Of a stretch of 23,976 nucleotides of DNA, positions 6,310 to 23,726 are shown piece by piece. The position numbers were made by a program, and so were the translations under genes. The stretch is from IMG/VR virus record IMGVR_UViG_3300009412_001249, positions 1 through 23,976 of that record. One strand, 5' to 3'. The stretch comes from a virus. Under the pieces are notes generated by a model. It did not search any database and was not told the origin of the DNA. It worked only from the letters and a program-made list of their open reading frames with translations. Numbering within the stretch: the first letter of the stretch is position 1; every line of letters starts with the position of its first letter.

Positions 6310-6584
6310 TGGAAGCACTCATCGGGACAATCGGCGGCCTTATCCTGACGGGCCTGACCATTATCGCTGCGATTTGTTGGCGGGCAAGCGGGATCTCTAC
6401 GACTGTTAAAAAGCTCGGTGTGGACTTTGCAGCAGCGGTCCAGAACAACCGTGGAGACCATGCCGAGCTTCATCGCCGCATAGACCAGACCGAGGAGAAG
6501 CGCGCAGGGTTCGCTGCTGACTTCAGCAGACACTTAGGCAGGATCGAGGGAAAGCTAGACAAGCTGAACGGCGACGGCGAATGA
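6309..6584 (+). CDS. Small membrane protein with C-terminal coiled coil, holin/spanin-like
   Basis: A 91-residue protein whose ATG shares bases with the previous TAA. The N-terminal 23 residues form one membrane helix (LIGTIGGLILTGLTIIAAIC). The rest is charged and helical (NNRGDHAELHRRIDQTEEKR and then a Leu-spaced stretch, IEGKLDKLN), typical of a coiled coil. This layout is common among phage holins and membrane-anchored lysis accessories, and also among tail-adjacent membrane proteins. The stop overlaps the next ORF start as ATGA. Confidence 0.72.
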   Translation: MEALIGTIGGLILTGLTIIAAICWRASGISTTVKKLGVDFAAAVQNNRGDHAELHRRIDQTEEKRAGFAADFSRHLGRIEGKLDKLNGDGE

Positions 6585-6688
6585 AGTTTGGTGGGACCAC
6601 CCTCATCATGTTGGCCTTCCTGAGTGTCCGGGCCTGCTTCCTGGACTGGCAGTTCACTCCGCCATGGAAGGTACCGGGGTTTAACTAA
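6581..6688 (+). CDS. 35-residue hydrophobic peptide at the end of the tail/lysis run
   Basis: ATG 6581 overlaps the previous stop (ATGA), so the peptide would be made by translational coupling. It starts MKFGGTTLIMLAFLSVRACF, a hydrophobic signal-like stretch with one Cys at residue 19, then a short aromatic/Pro tail. The residues before the Cys (VRA) are a poor match to a lipobox because of the Arg, so a lipoprotein (outer spanin type) is unlikely. Its TAA overlaps the stop codon of the converging minus-strand gene by two bases. Short and unrecognised. Confidence 0.45.
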   Translation: MKFGGTTLIMLAFLSVRACFLDWQFTPPWKVPGFN

Positions 6689-6933
6689 CGATTGCGTTCA
6701 CCGACAGCATCCCTGAGGGCGCGATAGAGCAAGTCCCAGGCGAGTAGCCGCTTCCTGGGGAAGCCCCTTACTTCAATGGCTCGCCAGAGCCGACCGGCCT
6801 TGTCTGAGAAGGTCGCGGCATAGGTTCCACGCGACAGCGTGCCAGTTCCTTCGTTGATGATCGCGGCGCGACCGAGGACCTGTGCCCTACTCTTGTCCCC
6901 ACCAGGCCATAGTTCAACGGTAACAACTATCAC
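6685..6933 (-). CDS. Conserved small phage/mobile-element protein (LWPGG...R family)
   Basis: An 82-residue protein from GTG 6933. It reads MIVVTVELWPGGDKSRAQVL, then GRAAIINEGTG, ending in GFPRKRLLAWDLLYRALRDA. I recall small uncharacterised proteins of this pattern (VELWPGG-x-SRA near the start, RG-WR and a WDLL-type end) from phages and actinobacterial or Chloroflexota mobile elements, where they often begin at this position. The frame is open up to 7038, but the added residues are unlike the family. GTG 6933 overlaps the TGA of a 17-codon ORF with a strong ribosome binding site, which explains how it can be translated. It lies directly downstream of the methyltransferase gene. Function unknown. 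Confidence 0.68.
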   Translation of the reverse strand: MIVVTVELWPGGDKSRAQVLGRAAIINEGTGTLSRGTYAATFSDKAGRLWRAIEVRGFPRKRLLAWDLLYRALRDAVGERNR

Positions 6934-6983
6934 AAAACCCGTCCCTGGCTCACGAGGTGCCCGTATCCGGGGCTTTGCACCAT
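6930..6983 (-). CDS. Possible 17-residue leader peptide coupled to the downstream gene
   Basis: On the minus strand, AGGAGGT sits four bases before ATG 6983. The ORF runs 17 codons (MVQSPGYGHLVSQGRVL) and stops at TGA 6932-6930. That TGA shares bases with GTG 6933 of the 82-residue gene in a GTGA overlap. The strong ribosome binding site has no other start at a usable distance. The simplest reading is a leader ORF that delivers ribosomes to the weakly initiated gene. A frameshifted longer N-terminus is the alternative. Confidence 0.42.
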   Translation of the reverse strand: MVQSPGYGHLVSQGRVL

Positions 6984-6992
6984 AACTACCTC

Positions 6993-7026
6993 CTGAACCA
7001 AAAGTCCTCATTCTGAACCAAAAGTC
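6993..7026. repeat. Two 14-bp direct repeats at the methyltransferase gene end
   Basis: CTGAACCAAAAGTC occurs at 6993-7006 and again at 7013-7026, spaced 20 bp start to start (close to two helical turns). The second copy overlaps the stop codon of the methyltransferase gene. The spacing is not a multiple of three, so it is not a protein repeat. It may be a protein-binding site ahead of the small downstream gene, or a duplication scar. Confidence 0.7.
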
Positions 7027-8284
7027 AGGCCAGGGCAACGCGCTCGTGTTCCAAAATCTCGTCTACAGTTAGCGGCACGATGTCGAGTCCATCGTCTACG
7101 TTGGCCCTTTTGATCTCCCGCATGGCTCCATCGGTGAATCCAAAGGCGACGAAATACCCGTGCAATCGTTTGTCGCGCCGCATGGCTGTCTCAAACTTGT
7201 CGATGTCTGGGCGGCCCACGCGGTCTACTTGCTTAACCTGAATCGGATACCACTTGTCGAGAGTCTCTAGGAAGTCCCCCTGATGGCTCTTTTCAATGTC
7301 CGCCAGATAGAGCCTGCCGTCTATTCCAAGATCGCCGACCTTCACGCGGTTCGGTATCCCTCCCAAGGCAACCACCGCCCAGTTCTCGAATTCGAAGTGA
7401 GGCATGTGGCGGAGTTCATTGGCCGTCTTGGGCAGGTCACGGATTTCAAAGGCTTCCCCAGCTTTCAAGCCCAGCCGGTCTTCCAGCCGTTGCGCCATCA
7501 CACGGCAAGCGGTGGGGGAAACGTCGATACCTATCCAGCCTCTCTTGTGAAGCGCCGAGGCTTCCAGGGTCGTGCCGCACCCACAGAAGGCATCCAAGAC
7601 AAGACCGTCTCGCGGGCAAAGGGTCTGAATAAGCCGCTCTAGTAGCGGTAAGGGTTTCTGTGTAGGCCACCCAAGCCGTACCTTTGCAGAGGGAGCTTCG
7701 GGCTGGATATCCGACCATACATCGTCGGGGTGCTTCCCTTTTGGATTCAACTTCTGGGGGCCATAGTCGTGCCCTTCACGGACATTGCCGATGTGGTGAC
7801 TGAACCGCTCAACGGTGGCGGCCGCGTAAGGCATGCGTGCGGGGTCAGGGTCGAAGTACCATGTCGAGCCTTTCGTATACCAAAGCAGGGCATCATGACG
7901 GCGCGCGAATCGCTTTGGGGATACCCCTGCGCCCCTGTAATACCAGATAAGTTCGTTCTGGAAGTTGTCAAAGCCAAATATACGGTCGGACTCTACCTTC
8001 ACGTAGTGGCTAGCATGCCAGTCACAATGATAGACAAAGCTACCGTCTGGCTTCAAAATGCGGTGGATTTCCTTTAGCCGAGGGCGCATCCAATCCAGAT
8101 ACGTCATAGCGTCCCCAAAACGGTCCGTGAATGATCGTCGTTCCTGGGCCTCGCCCCAAAAGACCTCGTAGTTCCGGCTACTGTTGAACGGAGGGTCGAT
8201 ATAGACGAGATCAATGGACTCATCAGGGACGTACTTTTGCAACACCTCCAGATTGTCTCCGCAGTAGATGACATTGCTGTCCAT
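7025..8284 (-). CDS. Beta-class DNA methyltransferase fused to a PD-(D/E)XK (Mrr-like) nuclease domain
   Basis: A 419-residue protein. Residues 1 to about 270 are a methyltransferase with motif IV DPPF at 30-33 before motif I DAFCGCGTT at 231-239, the beta-class order; DPPF suggests adenine-N6 or cytosine-N4 methylation. Residues about 295-419 form a second domain with FENWAVVALGG, GDLGIDG (Asp322) and PIQVKQ (Gln349, Lys351), then VGRPDIDKFETA and GYFVAFGFT. This is the D...QxK layout of Mrr-type restriction nucleases, seen fused to methyltransferases in other bacteria. It might act as a one-protein restriction-modification enzyme or as a methyltransferase with a DNA-binding tail. It abuts the 336-aa gene upstream without a gap. 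Target sequence unknown. Confidence 0.85.
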   Translation of the reverse strand: MDSNVIYCGDNLEVLQKYVPDESIDLVYIDPPFNSSRNYEVFWGEAQERRSFTDRFGDAMTYLDWMRPRLKEIHRILKPDGSFVYHCDWHASHYVKVESDRIFGFDNFQNELIWYYRGAGVSPKRFARRHDALLWYTKGSTWYFDPDPARMPYAAATVERFSHHIGNVREGHDYGPQKLNPKGKHPDDVWSDIQPEAPSAKVRLGWPTQKPLPLLERLIQTLCPRDGLVLDAFCGCGTTLEASALHKRGWIGIDVSPTACRVMAQRLEDRLGLKAGEAFEIRDLPKTANELRHMPHFEFENWAVVALGGIPNRVKVGDLGIDGRLYLADIEKSHQGDFLETLDKWYPIQVKQVDRVGRPDIDKFETAMRRDKRLHGYFVAFGFTDGAMREIKRANVDDGLDIVPLTVDEILEHERVALA

Positions 8285-11706: not shown

Positions 11707-11916
11707 CGTCGTCTCCTCTAAGGTTTCGGCCCGGCTGGGGCCTCGTCAGCAGGGGTGTCCCTTTCATCCCCTGAACCTTTGCCGCCTCGTCGCCGGGTCC
11801 GGGTTCGCCGCTCTCGAAGCTCCCCCCTTGCACCGCCTGCCGGGCTTGGTTTGGGTTGGTTGTCGTCACCACCGTTTGTTGTTCGTACTCTCTAGCTACC
11901 TCCTGATTGTAAAGGC

Positions 11917-13740: not shown

Positions 13741-14558
13741 ACCCGCTCGTATTCGATACGACCCCTAGGACGCCAGTCCCTGACGAGTTCTTCTGTACTC
13801 CCCGGGAGGATTGCTTCAAGTGTGGCGCTGGCGGCGGTCTTCGGGCGGATAGGATCGCCAGCTTCGTCGAGTGGGCCAAGGAGCATCGGCCAGCCCTAGC
13901 TAACGGGTCGGCGGCCGGACTTTCCCCGTATATGTGCGGAATGGATCAGGCGGTGCTACAGCGCGAAGCGCAGGATCAGCAAAACCTCATAGCGGCTCAC
14001 CTTCCGATCCGCAATGATCCGGTCGGTCCTCGGACCTTCGACAACTTCAAGCCCACAACCGATACGCGGGAGATGTTCGGCGCCGTGGTCGCGCTAAGCA
14101 AGGGCGCTGGGCCGCGTCACCTCCTGCTCTCGGGGATTACGGGTGCGGGCAAGTCCCACATGCTAGAGGCGCTCTGCCGCACCGTCCTTACGGCGGGGCA
14201 CTCGGTCTACTACACGAACGCGTTAGACCTCCTAGACCGGCTCCGGGCGGCCGTAGGTTCGGGCGAAGGCGTTACCGAGCTAATGGACTTTCTGCGATCC
14301 GTTCACCTGCTCGCGTTGGACGAGATAGGCGTTGACTCAAACGTCACCCCGTGGGGCGTCGACTACCTGACGGACATCGTCGACCATCGCTACGCGGACG
14401 GGTCGTACATGATCGCGGCCACCAACGGGACCACCCCGGACCAGTTGGCCGAGAAGTGGGGCCACCGGCTCGCGTCGCGGTTGTTCGATCGCTCCTCGGG
14501 GATCGTCCGGGTGATCTGGTGCGTGGCGGAAGACTACCGGCTGAAGGTGCCAGCATGA
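13737..14558 (+). CDS. DnaC-type AAA+ helicase loader
   Basis: A 273-residue protein, overlapping the initiator gene as ATGA. It has Walker A GITGAGKS at 133-140, Walker B LLALDEIG at 191-198 (Asp195, Glu196), a sensor-1 AATN at 227-230 and an arginine-bearing SRLFDR at 248-252. The N-terminal 70 residues carry Cys20, Cys26, Cys29 and Cys67 (CFKCG), a possible zinc site in the part that would touch the helicase. Family members place the replicative helicase on DNA opened by the initiator. No helicase or primase gene is visible in the window, so it probably recruits the host's. Its last 20 codons resemble a remnant at 16063-16124. Confidence 0.88.
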   Translation: MNPLVFDTTPRTPVPDEFFCTPREDCFKCGAGGGLRADRIASFVEWAKEHRPALANGSAAGLSPYMCGMDQAVLQREAQDQQNLIAAHLPIRNDPVGPRTFDNFKPTTDTREMFGAVVALSKGAGPRHLLLSGITGAGKSHMLEALCRTVLTAGHSVYYTNALDLLDRLRAAVGSGEGVTELMDFLRSVHLLALDEIGVDSNVTPWGVDYLTDIVDHRYADGSYMIAATNGTTPDQLAEKWGHRLASRLFDRSSGIVRVIWCVAEDYRLKVPA

Positions 14559-15946
14559 CCCCAACCTACGACAACGGCGTGGTGCGGCTCTACCAGGGCG
14601 ACGCCCGCGACCTGAGCGGGGTCCCCGACGAGTCGGTGCACTGCATCGTGACGAGCCCGCCTTACTGGGGCTTGAGGGACTACGGGCTGGAACCGAGCGT
14701 TTGGGGCGGCGACGACCACGAGCACGAGTGGGAGAACGAAACGGTCGCCACTGAAATAGGCAAGGGCAACTGGGCACAGGGTGTCAACGGTCGTGGTGAA
14801 CTACAGCCTGGTGGGGTCGATGCGAAGCGAGAGCCGCTACGGTCAGCCTCGTCTAGGTCCTGCTGCCCCTGCGGCGCTTGGCGTGGCACCCTTGGCCTGG
14901 AGCCGACCATCGACCTCTACGTCGAGCACATGGTCGAGGTGTTCCGCAAGCTCTGGCGTGTGCTGCGGAAGGACGGGACGTGCTGGCTGAACATCGGCGA
15001 TTCCTATGCCTCGGCCTGGTCTACCTCTAGGCGCAACATCATTGGGAATACATCCCCAGCCCTTGCGGAACGGGTGGATCGTTTGTCTGGATGCTTGAAG
15101 GACAAAGACCTTTGCATGATGCCTGCCCGCGTGGCGCTCGCGCTCCAAGCTGATGGCTGGTGGGTGCGCAGCGACGTCGTGTGGTCGAAGCCCAACCCCA
15201 TGCCCGAGAGCGTGACCGATCGCCCGACCCGGAGCCACGAGTACCTTTTCCTGTTGACGAAGGCTGAACGGTACTACTACGACGCCGACGCGGTTCGGGA
15301 GAGCGCCATTCACGAGGGCCGCTTAGTTAGGGCGTCTGGCCACGATGCGAAGAACCTCGATGGCGCTACGCCTACCAACGATAGACGGACAGCAGCAGGA
15401 TTTGCAAAGCATGACACCCTCGTGAGTGGCCGCAACAAGCGGTCGGTGTGGGAGGTCGCCACGCAGCCCTACCCCGAGGCACATTTCGCTACATTTCCAG
15501 AGGCGCTGGTCGAGCCGTGCATCCTGGCCGGCACGTCGGAGCATGGCGTCTGCCCCGAGTGCGGCGCGCCGTGGGAGCGGGTCGTTGAGAAAGGGAAAGC
15601 GCAAACAGAACCAAATCACCGCAATCCACCGAAGCGGCTTGAACGCGGCCAAGCTGGAAATGTCGGTGCTGGCAATATGGGATTCCGTGCTTCGCGCTTA
15701 AGTGGGCAGGAACAAGCCCGGTGGAAGGCAGAACATCCGGATCAGACTCTCGGCTGGCGGCCCACCTGCGACCACGACCGAGCCCCGATAAGTGCCACAG
15801 TGCTCGACCCCTTCGCAGGCTCCGGCACCACCTGTGTCGTGGCTCAGAAGCTCGGGCGTCGAGCCATCGGCGTTGACCTCAATGCTGACTACCTGGCGCT
15901 GGCTGAAAAGAGGCTGGCCCAAGTGTCGCTACCGTTGGGGATTTAA
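14555..15946 (+). CDS. Beta-class DNA methyltransferase with SPPY motif (likely cytosine-N4)
   Basis: A 463-residue protein; ATG 14555 overlaps the loader stop as ATGA and is preferred to frame openings upstream. Motif IV TSPPYWGLRDYG (SPPY 34-37) precedes motif I DPFAGSGTT (418-426), the beta-class order; SPPY is typical of cytosine-N4 enzymes. Between them lies a long region with a possible zinc site, CPECGAPW, and a phage-typical tail of W-x-V-x-TQPYPEAHFATFP. The orphan enzyme has no matching nuclease nearby, so it most likely protects phage DNA from host restriction or alters gene control. Confidence 0.92.
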   Translation: MTPTYDNGVVRLYQGDARDLSGVPDESVHCIVTSPPYWGLRDYGLEPSVWGGDDHEHEWENETVATEIGKGNWAQGVNGRGELQPGGVDAKREPLRSASSRSCCPCGAWRGTLGLEPTIDLYVEHMVEVFRKLWRVLRKDGTCWLNIGDSYASAWSTSRRNIIGNTSPALAERVDRLSGCLKDKDLCMMPARVALALQADGWWVRSDVVWSKPNPMPESVTDRPTRSHEYLFLLTKAERYYYDADAVRESAIHEGRLVRASGHDAKNLDGATPTNDRRTAAGFAKHDTLVSGRNKRSVWEVATQPYPEAHFATFPEALVEPCILAGTSEHGVCPECGAPWERVVEKGKAQTEPNHRNPPKRLERGQAGNVGAGNMGFRASRLSGQEQARWKAEHPDQTLGWRPTCDHDRAPISATVLDPFAGSGTTCVVAQKLGRRAIGVDLNADYLALAEKRLAQVSLPLGI

Positions 15947-15969: not shown

Positions 15970-16124
15970 ATGTCGACGAATGACGTTCCGGGATCGAAGG
16001 CGACTCGGTGATTATCTCTTTCGCGAAGACCACCCCGGCGCTGCTGGCATTCGACCGGACCAATCCCGAGTTCGTGCGGGTGATCTGGTGCGAGGCGGAG
16101 GATTACAGGTTGAAACGTACGTGA
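15970..16124 (+). pseudogene. Broken chimera: ASCH-like N-terminus joined to a helicase-loader-like C-terminus
   Basis: A strong AGGAGG lies six bases before ATG 15970, but that frame stops after 13 codons at 16009. An overlapping frame from GTG 16008 reads VIISFAKTTPALLA, which is the usual opening of ASCH-domain-type phage proteins (SFAxTTxALLAGRKT). It then passes directly into FDRTNPEFVRVIWCEAEDYR and ends at 16122-16124. The second part matches the C-terminus of the window's own helicase loader (FDRSSGIVRVIWCVAEDYRLK). The join, the frame change and the short length indicate a recombination scar. The TGA overlaps the next start. Confidence 0.65.
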
Positions 16125-16483
16125 AGACCGTAAGGCTGGTCCATATCGACGGCAAGTTGCCTAACCTGGCTCTGATGAAACTCGCCCATTGGCACCGGAA
16201 CCGTGGAGACCAAGTGGTGCTGGCCCGAACGCCATCGCCCAGTATGTTTGAACCCCGATACGACACTGTGTACGGGTCGTCTATCTTCCGCTGGAGTGAT
16301 CCTGTTGTTCACCGCTTGAAAGCGGCCTACCCCGAGGCTATCGTTGGCGGCACCGGAACTGGTGACTGGCGCACGGTCGAGCAGTTCATCGGCGATGAGA
16401 AGTACGAGTACTACGACTACTCGATTTACCCTGACTACCCGTTCAGCCTAGGCTTCACTCAGCGGGGCTGTCGGCATGGTTAG
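16121..16483 (+). pseudogene. Radical-SAM phage protein truncated at the iron-sulfur motif
   Basis: From GTG 16121 the 120-residue product reads VRLVHIDGKLPNLALMKLAH, then YDTVYGSSIF, AIVGGTGTGDW and finally FSLGFTQRGCRHG. This is the N-terminal, B12-binding-like domain of a radical-SAM family common in phages, in which GFTQRGC begins the CxxxCxxC cluster motif. Here the sequence stops three codons after the first Cys and the whole catalytic barrel is missing, replaced by the next gene's start. It cannot hold the cluster and is probably inactive. The frame open to 15980 upstream is chance. Confidence 0.72.
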
Positions 16484-17503
16484 TTTCGAGGACTATGACC
16501 AACTCTTGGCGGCGCGGGACCTGCCGGAAATGCAGCGGTTTATGGAAGCTGCACAGAACGATACGGCTGCGACGCAGCGCCTATTGGACCGGCTAGCCGA
16601 ACGCGTACGCTGCGATCCACTGTTCCAACAATACGCCCAATCGGCTCTGGCACATACACAGACTGGCCGCGACTTCCGCCATACCGCTCCCTGGATGGCT
16701 CAGGGGGAGCGGCTTTACACTGTGGCAATGCTGGCCTTTCCTGAAACGAGTGGTTTGCTAAAGTTAGACATCTTTGGTGGGCGCACTGAGCAGCCTCACG
16801 CATGGGTCAGGGCCACTATCGGGATGCTATTGATGATGGCGGCTACATACTACTGGAGCAACGAGATTGACGCGGTGGCGCGTGAACTACCGCTGCCGCG
16901 CCATGTGATCGGCCGGGCAATGCCCCACCCGATCATGTTTATGTCGACTGAAACGGCGCACCGCGTCCGGAACGCTGCGACCGGCGAGAGCCTGGGCGGC
17001 GATATGAATTGGATGCTGCTTGTGGACCGTGGCGATCAACTCGATATACTTAGTGATATCCAAGCACCGTCAGAGGACCGATACGCAATCGTCGGGGGCA
17101 CCATCAAATACGGCCAGACGTATCCCGACGATTTTCGGTCGGGGGGGATGATTCGAGGGACTGAAACAGTCCTTCGCAAGCTAGCGTTTATCAACTCGCC
17201 GTACATAGAAAAAGCATCGGTGCCGTTGCCTCGCACCATCCGCCGCCGTGTCGAGGCTGTCAGGAAAGAAGACGCCTCGCACAGCACGATCGTACTGAGA
17301 CGGGCGCTGCCGACTCCGAGCGGGGCTGCCCAACAAGCTACCGGTGGTGCTTCCGGCTTTAATCACCAGTGGTGGGTGAGTGGCCACATCCGGGCTCAGT
17401 GGTATCCTCGGAAAAAGCGCATCGGTTGATTTGGATCGCGCCCTATATCAAGGGGCCACCGGATAAACCGATGAAGCAGCAAACTTACGCGGTCGTCCGA
17501 TGA
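16476..17503 (+). pseudogene. AcrVA2-like or related phage protein with a one-base frameshift near the end
   Basis: The frame from ATG 16476 stops at 17429 (317 residues). Its last natural motif is WWVSGHIRAQWYP, after which it reads RKKRIG. In the next frame, from T17408, the sequence continues SEKAHRLIWIAPYIKGPPDK and ends AVVR at TGA 17501-17503. Together these make the W-x-V-x-GH-x-R-x-Q-W-Y-P...H-R-x-I-W-I-x-P-Y-x-K-G-P end I recall from a family in actinobacterial phages and mobile elements. One missing base near 17406-17409 (CCT-TCG become CCTCG) accounts for the break. The general plan and the RGHW-type C-terminus recall the anti-CRISPR AcrVA2, but that link is tentative. Confidence 0.7.
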
Positions 17504-17512
17504 AGGTGCGAG

Positions 17513-18310
17513 ATGGCTAATCTACGTATTATATCGCTCGGCTGGGGCGTCCAGTCCTGGACGCTGGCGGCCATGACGGCGCTCGGGGAGCTTGAGCCCG
17601 TGGACTACGCCATCCACGCCGATACGACCTACGAGCACGCTGGTACGTACGCCCATGCTAAGAAGTGGGCGCCTTGGCTGGGCGAGCAAGGCGTCAAAGT
17701 GGTGACGGTCACGGCTAGGCGGGTTGACGTTGTGCGCGAGGAATGGGCGAACGCAGTGTCAATCCCGGCCTTTACGACCGATACGCAGACGGGGGCAAGG
17801 GGCCAAGTTAGGCGACAGTGTACTCATGACTGGAAGATAGCGCCAATCCGGCAGTACCTCCGCCAAGTCATGACTGAACGGGGGATAAAGGCAACCCCAG
17901 GCGCCGTCCATAGCCTCCAGGGTATTAGCCTCGACGAGTGGACGCGGATGCGGGACTCGGACGTGAAATATATTGAGAACGTCTACCCGCTTATCGACGC
18001 GCGCATGACGCGGGCCGAGTGCAAGGCGTGGCTAGAAAGAAACCACCTGCCCGTCCCTGTTAAGTCGTCGTGTGTGTTCTGCCCCTATAAGAGCATCCCG
18101 GTGTGGAAGGATATGAAGCGTCGGGGTGGCCCTGATTGGCAGGTGGCCGAGGCCGTCGACGCGAACATCCGGGATCGGCGGGCATCTGCCGGAAATCTCC
18201 TGTACGTTCACCCTAACCGCAAGCCGCTGTCGGAGGCCGTAAAGATTCCAGAGGACGAGGGGGCTCAGCAGCTAGAGCTGCCTTGCGACTCCGGGTTCTG
18301 TATGACATGA
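17513..18310 (+). CDS. PAPS-reductase-like (adenine nucleotide alpha-hydrolase) protein
   Basis: A 265-residue protein; GAAGGTGCGAG precedes ATG 17513. It belongs by pattern to the phosphoadenosine-phosphosulfate reductase-like PP-loop family common in phages: SLGWGVQSWTL at 8-18 (PP-loop position, with Trp in place of the second Gly), HADTTYEHAGTYAH at 35-48, RQCTHDWKIAPIR at 101-113, and CVFCPY at 187-192. Such proteins activate a substrate with ATP, often ahead of sulfur or base modification. Its neighbours are a methyltransferase and a resolvase. The substrate is unknown. The PP-loop change may reduce ATP binding. Confidence 0.82.
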   Translation: MANLRIISLGWGVQSWTLAAMTALGELEPVDYAIHADTTYEHAGTYAHAKKWAPWLGEQGVKVVTVTARRVDVVREEWANAVSIPAFTTDTQTGARGQVRRQCTHDWKIAPIRQYLRQVMTERGIKATPGAVHSLQGISLDEWTRMRDSDVKYIENVYPLIDARMTRAECKAWLERNHLPVPVKSSCVFCPYKSIPVWKDMKRRGGPDWQVAEAVDANIRDRRASAGNLLYVHPNRKPLSEAVKIPEDEGAQQLELPCDSGFCMT

Positions 18311-19776: not shown

Positions 19777-20013
19777 TTGAACGCCGCCATTATCTCAGCC
19801 CGGGAGGCCCATTCTGTTGTGGCTAACTGCCCTGGAGCTAACGAGCGCCCCCTATACATCGTTGCATACCCGAACACGCCGCTCCACGGCCGGTGTACTC
19901 GCTGCGATAGGGTCCTGGTACTTCGGATTATGAGCGCCCATAGAAGGTCGAGGATACGAGTATCGCCTGCTCGGTTCGACGAGGGCGTAATGCGGCGACA
20001 CGCGGGGGAATGA
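19777..20013 (+). CDS. Probable small protein with CxxC motif
   Basis: A 78-residue protein if TTG 19777 is the start; GGGAG lies about 16 bases upstream, which is far. It contains CTRC at 40-43, VLVLRIMSAHRRSR and an end RFDEGVMRRHAGE. Its TGA overlaps the ATG of the ParB-methyltransferase gene, a sign of real translation. The weak start leaves some doubt; the stretch could instead hold a shorter gene using an internal GTG. Confidence 0.5.
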   Translation: MNAAIISAREAHSVVANCPGANERPLYIVAYPNTPLHGRCTRCDRVLVLRIMSAHRRSRIRVSPARFDEGVMRRHAGE

Positions 20014-21230
20014 TGCAGATACGCAACAGAGTAAAGGAGCTACGCTCCGTCAAGGCGTCCGAGCTTCTGCCACACCCGGAGAACTGGCGCCAGCACCCAC
20101 CGGCTCAGCGTCGGGCGATTGAAGCGGTCCTCGGGGAGATAGGGTACGCTGATGCGATCCTCGCGCGGGAGACGCCGGACGGCCTACAGATACTCGACGG
20201 GCACCTACGAGCCGAGACCACCCCGGATACGGAAGTCCCGGTGCTCGTACTCGACCTCGACGACGACGAGGCCCGCAAGCTCCTGCTGACGCTGGACCCC
20301 TTGGCGGCGATGGCGGAGGCGGACACCGATGCCATCAAGACCCTTGCCGATGCAGCCGCATTCGACAGCGATGTCCTGTCGCAACTCGTTGCGTCCGTCG
20401 CAGATGGTGGGCTAGCAACGCTCACGTTGCCCGAGGACCCGAAAGAGGAAACCCACGACACTGGCGCCGCTATAGATGCAGCCGAGGCGGACGACTACGC
20501 TGCAACGGTGCAACGGGGCCAGGTGTGGCAGCTCGGCGAGCACCGGCTGATGTGCGGGGACTCGACCGACGAGGAGGACGTGGGGGCGTTGCTGGGTGGG
20601 GTGACGCCTAATCTCATGGTGACCGACCCGCCCTATGGGGTTAGCTATGACGCGATTTGGCGCGCCGACGCTGGGTTAACTGCCAGGACAGGCCCAAGAG
20701 TCGGCACCGTCACGAACGACGACCGGGCCGATTGGAGCGAGGCATGGGCGCTATTCCCAGGCGCCGTTGCTTACGTGTGGCATGACGCGACGGCGCAAGA
20801 GGTTCAGGAAAGCCTAAAGGCCAAGGGGTTCGAGACGCGATCCCAAATCGTATGGGCCAAGACACGATTCGCAATCGGGCGAGGTCATTACCATTGGCAG
20901 CATGAGTCGTGCTGGTATGCCGTCCGAAAGGGCAAGACCGCCGCATGGGCTGGCGATCGATCCCAGACGACGCTATGGGCTATCCCGCTAGACGCTAACG
21001 TCGAGGGAGGGCACAGCACCCAGAAGCCGCTCGAATGCATGGAGCGCCCGATACGCAACCACGAGGGCGATGTCTACGAGCCCTTCGTCGGATCTGGGAC
21101 AACCATCATCGCAGCGGAGCGCCTAGGGCGGCGGTGCTATGCTTTGGACATTGAGCCTCGCTACTGCGACGTCACAATCCGACGCTGGGAAGACTACACT
21201 GGCCAGAAGGCGGTGCTGGTCGATGGGTAG
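20010..21230 (+). CDS. ParB-domain / DNA methyltransferase fusion
   Basis: A 406-residue protein. Residues 12 to about 100 are a ParB/sulfiredoxin-like N-terminal domain (SELLPHPENWRQHP, then ILDGHLRAE at 61-69). Residues about 165-406 are a beta-class methyltransferase with DPPYG at 206-210 and motif I-like EPFVGSGTT at 357-365, suggesting adenine-N6. This fusion is widespread in phages just ahead of terminase genes, as here. The ParB part may bind DNA or hydrolyse nucleotide to guide methylation. DNA protection is the usual proposal. The stop overlaps the terminase small subunit start. Confidence 0.92.
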   Translation: MMQIRNRVKELRSVKASELLPHPENWRQHPPAQRRAIEAVLGEIGYADAILARETPDGLQILDGHLRAETTPDTEVPVLVLDLDDDEARKLLLTLDPLAAMAEADTDAIKTLADAAAFDSDVLSQLVASVADGGLATLTLPEDPKEETHDTGAAIDAAEADDYAATVQRGQVWQLGEHRLMCGDSTDEEDVGALLGGVTPNLMVTDPPYGVSYDAIWRADAGLTARTGPRVGTVTNDDRADWSEAWALFPGAVAYVWHDATAQEVQESLKAKGFETRSQIVWAKTRFAIGRGHYHWQHESCWYAVRKGKTAAWAGDRSQTTLWAIPLDANVEGGHSTQKPLECMERPIRNHEGDVYEPFVGSGTTIIAAERLGRRCYALDIEPRYCDVTIRRWEDYTGQKAVLVDG

Positions 21231-21801: not shown

Positions 21802-22894
21802 CGGCGTAGACTCTGGTCGCTCGGGCAGGTGGGCGCTGGTGGCTCGGACACCGGCGGACATCCGGGACACGATGATCGAGGGGGAGTCCGGCCTGATCGC
21901 TGTTTCACCACCGCATCAACGGCCAACCTACAACAAGGCCAACCGGAAGCTATCGTGGCCCAACGGTGCCTTCGCGCTTTGCTTTAGCTCCTATGAGCCC
22001 GACCAGCTACGAGGCCCCCAGTTCGACGAGGCATGGTGCGACGAGTTGGGATCGTGGAAATACCCGCGGGAGACGTGGAACAACCTGCAATTCGGCCTTC
22101 GCCTCGGGCAGGCACCGAGGGTCACCATCACCACGACACCGAAGCCCATCAAGCTCCTGAAGGAGATTATGAGGGAGCCGGGCACCGTGACCACCAGGGG
22201 CGCCACCTACGACAACATGGCGAACCTGCCCCCGTCCTTCTTCGCCGCCATCATCCGCAAGTACGAGGGCACCAACCTAGGGCGTCAGGAGATATACGCC
22301 GAGCTGATAGAGCAGTTAGAGGGGGCGCTATGGCAGCGGGCCTGGATCGACGATCGGCGCGTGGCGCTTGGTACACCTGAGCAGTACAATATCCGACGAC
22401 TTGTGGTAGCCATAGACCCGAACGTTACGACTTCCGAGGAGAGCGATGAGGCGGGAATCGTAGCGGCTGGGATCGGAGAGAACAGCCACGGTTACGTCTT
22501 CCGGGACGCCTCGGGCAGGATGTCGCCGCTGGACTGGGCTAACCGGGCCATCGACCTCTACCTGGAGCTAAAGGCCGACACCATCGTTGCAGAAGCGAAC
22601 AACGGCGGCGAACTGGTGGAGATTACCATCGGCGTCGCCGCTCGAAATCGTGGTATGGTGGTGCCGGTTCAGCTAGTCCACGCGAGTCGAGGGAAACGTA
22701 CCCGTGCGGAGCCGGTAGCGGCACTGTACCAACAGGGCAAGGTCCACCACGTCGGGGAGTTCCCGGACCTCGAAGATCAGATGTGCACCTGGGAGAACAA
22801 GCCGGGGGAAGCGTCGCCGGACCGCCTCGATGCTGTCGTGTGGGGCCTGTCCGAGCTTATGCTGGAGGGGGAGCCAAGCGTGAGGTTCGTTTGA
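21527..22894 (+). CDS. terL: Terminase large subunit
   Basis: A 455-residue protein if GTG 21527 (with GAGG six bases upstream) is the start; TTG 21602 and TTG 21629 would give 430 or 421 residues, closer to family norms. The ATPase has Walker A AGRGWGKT at 76-83 after PPPGAWLTWLIL, and an acidic FDEAWCDELG Walker-B region. The nuclease half starts near VVAIDPN (first acid) and includes DTIVAEANNGG and RLDAVVWGL, the RNase-H-like metal ligands. It cuts concatemers and powers packaging into the procapsid. It contains the first copy of a 33-bp sequence repeated downstream. Confidence 0.92.
   Translation: MKSTSTSTTTPGKPSSISSVSTLEDLSRLKQKDSLTALVLSLPEEEARALLYEWTFWARTEQMPPPGAWLTWLILAGRGWGKTRTGAETVRDGVDSGRSGRWALVARTPADIRDTMIEGESGLIAVSPPHQRPTYNKANRKLSWPNGAFALCFSSYEPDQLRGPQFDEAWCDELGSWKYPRETWNNLQFGLRLGQAPRVTITTTPKPIKLLKEIMREPGTVTTRGATYDNMANLPPSFFAAIIRKYEGTNLGRQEIYAELIEQLEGALWQRAWIDDRRVALGTPEQYNIRRLVVAIDPNVTTSEESDEAGIVAAGIGENSHGYVFRDASGRMSPLDWANRAIDLYLELKADTIVAEANNGGELVEITIGVAARNRGMVVPVQLVHASRGKRTRAEPVAALYQQGKVHHVGEFPDLEDQMCTWENKPGEASPDRLDAVVWGLSELMLEGEPSVRFV
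22155..22187 (+). repeat. 33-bp direct repeat, copy 1 (inside terL)
   Basis: The stretch beginning TCCTGAAGGAGATTATGAGG and ending GGGCACCG is found again without change at 23302-23334. Here it encodes LKEIMREPGT of the terminase ATPase, where it fits the family, so this is the source copy. Confidence 0.95.
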
Positions 22895-23264: not shown

Positions 23265-23726
23265 ATGAAGCGTTGTCGATCGTGGCATTGGGCATACCAG
23301 GTCCTGAAGGAGATTATGAGGGAGCCGGGCACCGAAGCACGAAGGCCCCCACCAGACGCCGGGGCTGGTCGTGGGCGAGTCGGCACAGGGCGCGGCGATG
23401 GCGGCGGGGCTGAACGCATGAGGCGGCCGTGGCTGGTCAAGATGGTCGGGACGTCCATGACGCCGACGCTCCAGCCCGGTGATCGCTGCGTCGTGGTGCG
23501 GTACCGGCTCAGCTTTTGCGTCGTGATCGCTCGGCCTATCGTGGACCTCGACCTTGTCGTGAAGAGGATAACCACGTTCACCGTCGGCCGGGGACGGGGT
23601 GTTGTCGCCGACCTCCGCAGTGACAACCGGGACGTGGTCGACTACCCGGATGTCCCAATCGACAAGGTCCTTGGTCGCGTCTCGTTCCGCTACTGGCCGC
23701 CGCGCCGGGTCGGGTGGGTGCGATGA
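23265..23726 (+). CDS. S26 (signal-peptidase-like) serine protease, N-terminal region scrambled
   Basis: The frame from ATG 23265 (GGGGAAG upstream) gives 153 residues; ATG 23418 would give 102. The last 100 residues match S26 peptidases: VGTSMTPTLQPGD holds the Ser nucleophile, DLVVKR lies 36 residues later with the general-base Lys, then SDNRDVVD and KVLGRVSFRYWPPRRVG. The size and lack of a membrane segment resemble Ni-SOD maturation proteases more than true signal peptidases. The first 50 residues contain the terL 33-bp copy and a low-complexity stretch. Another frame ends in GLVVGESAQGAAMAAGLNA at TGA 23419-23421, overlapping ATG 23418, so the upstream part is probably a separate, broken gene. 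Confidence 0.65.
   Translation: MKRCRSWHWAYQVLKEIMREPGTEARRPPPDAGAGRGRVGTGRGDGGGAERMRRPWLVKMVGTSMTPTLQPGDRCVVVRYRLSFCVVIARPIVDLDLVVKRITTFTVGRGRGVVADLRSDNRDVVDYPDVPIDKVLGRVSFRYWPPRRVGWVR
23302..23334 (+). repeat. 33-bp direct repeat, copy 2 (in the S26 gene leader region)
   Basis: An exact copy of 22155-22187, in the same reading phase, giving LKEIMREPGT between WHWAYQV and EARRPPP. Flanking bases differ at once on both sides. It looks like a patch copied from terL into a gene that ended in another frame. Confidence 0.95.

Follow-up and report, generated by a model that had tools for sequence, protein, structure and literature searches.

AcrVA2, a Moraxella anti-CRISPR protein (PDB 7CI1, 7CI2), has been reported to recognise the nascent N-terminal peptide and then to cause degradation of cas12a mRNA while it is being translated (PMC13131331; PMC12908700). 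FinQ, a fertility inhibition protein of IncI1 plasmids, reportedly cuts tra transcripts short, with multiple termination sites in the F tra operon (PMC8744291). None of the papers that we searched names both FinQ and AcrVA2, although a preprint on AcrVA2 mRNA decay may already note a link. Sequence comparison indicates that FinQ is a clear homologue of AcrVA2. As an AcrVA2 homologue we took a protein from Moraxella phage Mcat5, which was checked against PDB 7CI1 (E 7e-127). A plasmid search with an AcrVA2-like protein returned 662 records, many of which are FinQ genes of enterobacterial plasmids. FinQ of plasmid pJIE174 (L195:1228-2319) aligns directly with AcrVA2 (L020:12810-13778) at 26% over 279 aa, with an E value of 2e-18 for this single comparison, and scores 196 bits against an AcrVA2-like HMM that was built without FinQ. 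AcrVA2 homologues form a large family of their own. AcrVA2-like proteins of the Erwinia phages RisingSun and Special G bear the annotations 'putative mycothiosynthase', which looks like a misannotation, and 'putative protein FinQ'.

Here we describe a gene that shares features with AcrVA2 and is interrupted in the window, by which we mean the whole 23,976-nucleotide stretch of viral DNA that was analysed (IMG/VR record IMGVR_UViG_3300009412_001249). As assembled, its product ends in ...QWYPRKKRIG, that is, ...FNHQWWVSGHIRAQWYPRKKRIG, and the -1 frame from about position 17408 continues as SEKAHRLIWIAPYIKGPPDKPMKQQTYAVVR up to a stop codon at 17501-17503, such that the C-terminal motif is split over two frames (Table 1). 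The stranded 32-aa tail by itself matches PHROG_15934, a family of unknown function, with an E value of 1.1e-5, and the intact protein encoded by a sibling contig (P0001, 342 aa) matches the same family over its C-terminal 73 residues (E 5e-13), its N-terminal two thirds being unmatched. Since both the tail and the intact protein match PHROG_15934, the split C-terminus is not a product of chance.

Table 1. Features at and around the interrupted gene (positions in the window)
Feature	Position	Strand	Remarks
Upstream ORF	15980..16483	+	167 aa; no Pfam match; overlaps the start of the gene by 8 bases
Truncated PHROG_15934-like family member	16476..17429	+	317 aa as assembled; intact in the siblings (L002 and L003)
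Private one-base indel	17406..17408	+	in a short homopolymer
C-terminal motif of the same gene	17408..17503	+	SEKAHRLIWIAPYIKGPPDKP...; -1 frame, open
A-rich slippery-like stretch	17411..17417	+	also present, and read in frame, in the siblings; conservation does not extend to other relatives
Strong RNA hairpin	17417..17476	+	z -4.06; not conserved in relatives
Downstream ORF	17513..18310	+	265 aa; resembles phosphoadenosine-phosphosulfate reductase on inspection by eye only; Pfam gave no match at E 0.001

The hairpin, which lies in the C-terminal coding region, is among the strongest of the window. Elsewhere on this 24-kb phage contig we noted three separate genes for DNA methylases of the N6_N4_Mtase family (7025-8284, minus strand; 14351-15946 and 20010-21230, plus strand), and a 36-nt segment within the terminase gene (22152-22187) that recurs with 97% identity 1147 bases downstream (23299-23334). 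A repeat whose period is about 87 bp is present in a sibling contig (L006, about 6500-7312); the start of the window cuts it off (1-249).

A scan of IMG/VR identified two contigs with the same gene (33.3 and 27.9 kb), and a second, exact-pattern scan returned only these two siblings. In both, the gene is uninterrupted and its product is 342 aa long. Across 1.2 kb, one base in a short homopolymer is the sole difference between the window and both siblings, and long overlaps are 99.90-99.97% identical. The original prediction, made from the letters of the window, was of a one-base frameshift in an otherwise whole gene; the continuous gene of the two siblings bears this out, which differs by a single base at about 17406-17408, and the predicted position of the break (about 17408) and restored length of 342 residues were right. 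Comparison with these intact homologues also indicates that the frameshift is private to the window. In the stretches where both siblings can be compared, the one-base indels at 11721 and 17408 and the substitutions at 11758 and 18423 are absent from both. The indel at 11721 splits a 196-aa open frame, and 15 bases downstream of it there is a GTG start that is preceded by a Shine-Dalgarno-like GAGGAG; with such a start so close its effect on coding is uncertain, and we did not retain it as a second broken gene.

We conclude that the frameshift is a one-off single-base difference, private to this one assembled sequence, and that as such it is ordinary and unimportant. The most likely source is an error left over from assembly or sequencing, or, with less likelihood, a very recent mutation that abolishes function, because the siblings are intact and need no slip, the split is unique, and the nearby A-run and hairpin are not conserved. 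That the indel is real and recent in this phage lineage, in a gene that is dispensable or selected for loss, seems rather unlikely. Short homopolymers mutate readily, and the small differences between the siblings and the window show that there is true micro-variation; the truncation would take away two predicted strands of the C-terminal domain together with its nearly invariant W, P and KGP residues, which would leave a truncated and probably inactive product. Yet no further difference has accumulated over 1.2 kb, the private indels are as many as the private substitutions (two of each), which is unusual for phage variation under selection, and in the exact-pattern scan of IMG/VR the shortened variant did not turn up in any other contig.

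The original prediction had also raised the idea of a slip-switchable gene. In such a case ribosomes would slip into the -1 frame on the A-run, as a programmed or an opportunistic event, and this allele would yield a full-length as well as a short protein. The arrangement is suggestive, with a run of five As ending in G followed two bases on by the strong hairpin, and a slip at the run would join the two frames. However, both siblings translate through the site without a slip, and the distance from A-run to hairpin is below that of most slippage signals, which usually have a longer spacing between site and structure. We also found the gene split at this site in 0 of 124 family ORFs, and viral relatives were collected by peptide patterns flanking the split on both sides, so that split members would have been caught. 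As the split frame, the slippery site and the stimulatory structure are not conserved in relatives, and the siblings are intact, we rejected programmed -1 frameshifting, and slippage of any kind on this allele is very improbable.

The intact sibling protein belongs to a large, widespread and unstudied family of phages and plasmids that is mostly actinobacterial. It carries, with substitutions, the family motif HRWxVRGHWRxQWYPSxxxHRxIWIxPYVKGPxDKP at its C-terminus. Across the family, the C-terminus is highly conserved, with GH.R.Q and WI.P..KGP as near-invariant residues of the C-terminal domain, and the N-terminal two thirds are variable. We identified members in 99 viral-contig stretches and 62 plasmid records, in 45 genome loci, of which most are from Actinomycetota and some from Acidobacteria and archaeal MAGs, and in a small number of isolate phages, Streptomyces phage Yara and Bifidobacterium phage BigBern1 among them. 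Together with the match to PHROG_15934, this distribution agrees with the earlier expectation of a C-terminal motif common to phages and mobile elements. All but 3 of 124 family ORFs from viral contigs and genomes are full-length, the three short ones all being at loci that start near a contig end; one member (L027:1126-1527), cut to 134 aa and without its N-terminal part, adjoins such an end. Every annotated homologue that we fetched is labelled as a hypothetical protein. Searches of Pfam and NCBIfam gave nothing of use for the gene, a phage tblastn search with the truncated 317-aa protein gave no match, and a search for a conserved gene neighbourhood across the family loci revealed nothing informative. 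An AlphaFold2 model of the intact protein, with an only moderate pLDDT of 76.5, predicts that the N-terminal part is helical and is followed by an alpha/beta middle and, at the C-terminus, by a small domain of four strands.

AcrVA2 follows the same general plan as this prediction, with its C-terminal domain likewise of four strands. Ordinary profile searches do not join the two families: neither PDB phmmer nor PDB profile searches with the window family had 7CI1 among their matches, and searches of the family with an AcrVA2-like HMM, and the reverse, gave nothing above noise apart from one match at E 0.007, on which we do not rely. The C-terminal motif of the AcrVA2 family, PHIRRGHWHxxWxG...WxPPxxVN, is absent in that form from the window family, which has the variant VRGHWRxQWYPS...WIxPYVKGPxDKP, aligned in register. 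Profile-profile alignments made without structure span between 33 and 98 columns at the C-terminus, place RGHW and W.P in register, and are weak; with deeper profiles, P values range from 6e-4 (hhalign) to 2e-3, and the hhalign score was equalled by none of 300 column shuffles and by one of 300 local shuffles. When secondary structure predicted in two AlphaFold2 models was added, the alignment extended to 220 collinear columns with a probability of 44%, compared with 14% for the best of 400 decoys and 0.1% for a reversed profile. The collinear alignment over the middle and C-terminal domains thus exceeds the decoys, at an absolute probability that is modest (27-44%).

Comparison of structures gives a mixed picture. 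By eye, the helices and strands of the two AlphaFold2 models, from about residue 109 of P0001, follow a similar order. A Foldseek search of the window protein against the PDB returned only noise, with 7CI1 absent among the matches listed. Against predicted viral structures, the 15 best matches to the window protein include 6 of the 10 neighbours that are significant for the AcrVA2 model (A0A384ZW45, A0A8S5RIP2, A0A6J5LC33, UPI001F12D096, A0A8S5NHI0 and UPI001E764E49), three of them at E values below 1e-4. TM-scores of these shared neighbours against the window model are low, at about 0.21-0.35. At least one of them comes from Dickeya phage JA13, whose genome has an AcrVA2-like protein by sequence.

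These comparisons suggest that the window family is probably a remote sister of the AcrVA2/FinQ superfamily. A relationship to AcrVA2 as originally predicted thus stands in a distant form, from the RGHW-type end in register, the similar order of elements and the common fold neighbours, and not as close membership. If the RGHW-type end were convergent or generic, the family could instead be unrelated to AcrVA2 and have another role, for example as a DNA-metabolism accessory or an early-region regulator. Such an outcome would fit the lack of significant matches in ordinary profile searches, the lack of a match in the PDB fold search and the low TM-scores; we consider it distinctly unlikely, given a collinear alignment that tops all 400 decoys, strands and helices in matching order, and six fold neighbours in common with the AcrVA2 model. 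On remote kinship with AcrVA2, FinQ also comes into the comparison, as a mobile-element gene like those of the window family and a member of the AcrVA2 superfamily. Its C-terminal ...IWLPPVPVN resembles the ...IWIAPYIKGP of the window family, to which it is tied only via AcrVA2-like proteins, and its target, the F tra operon, is not relevant here.

Since the reports on AcrVA2 and on FinQ both describe a reduction of target mRNA, we propose that the intact protein may lower the expression of a specific gene of the host or of a rival, and that it would do so, by analogy, at the mRNA level. Taken by itself, such a mechanism is tentative for the window family, and we rate it at somewhat below an even chance. 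Cas12a seems unlikely as the target, because the family is mostly actinobacterial. The explanation that we favour overall, and regard as fairly likely, combines a gene that is a remote sister of AcrVA2 and FinQ, a private indel that is most likely an error, and mRNA-level silencing by analogy.

A broader and more doubtful possibility is that a single superfamily, widespread in phages and plasmids, has AcrVA2, FinQ and the window family as its three branches and silences specific genes of hosts or rival elements via their mRNA, perhaps through recognition of nascent peptides, with Cas12a as one target of many. This superfamily view, with FinQ included, is the most interesting product of our analysis. 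It would remotely tie a family of over a hundred proteins of phages and plasmids, all uncharacterised, to a superfamily that has AcrVA2 and FinQ as its two characterised members. The link between these two also makes it testable whether the termination of the tra operon ascribed to FinQ may really be translation-coupled mRNA decay, as for AcrVA2.
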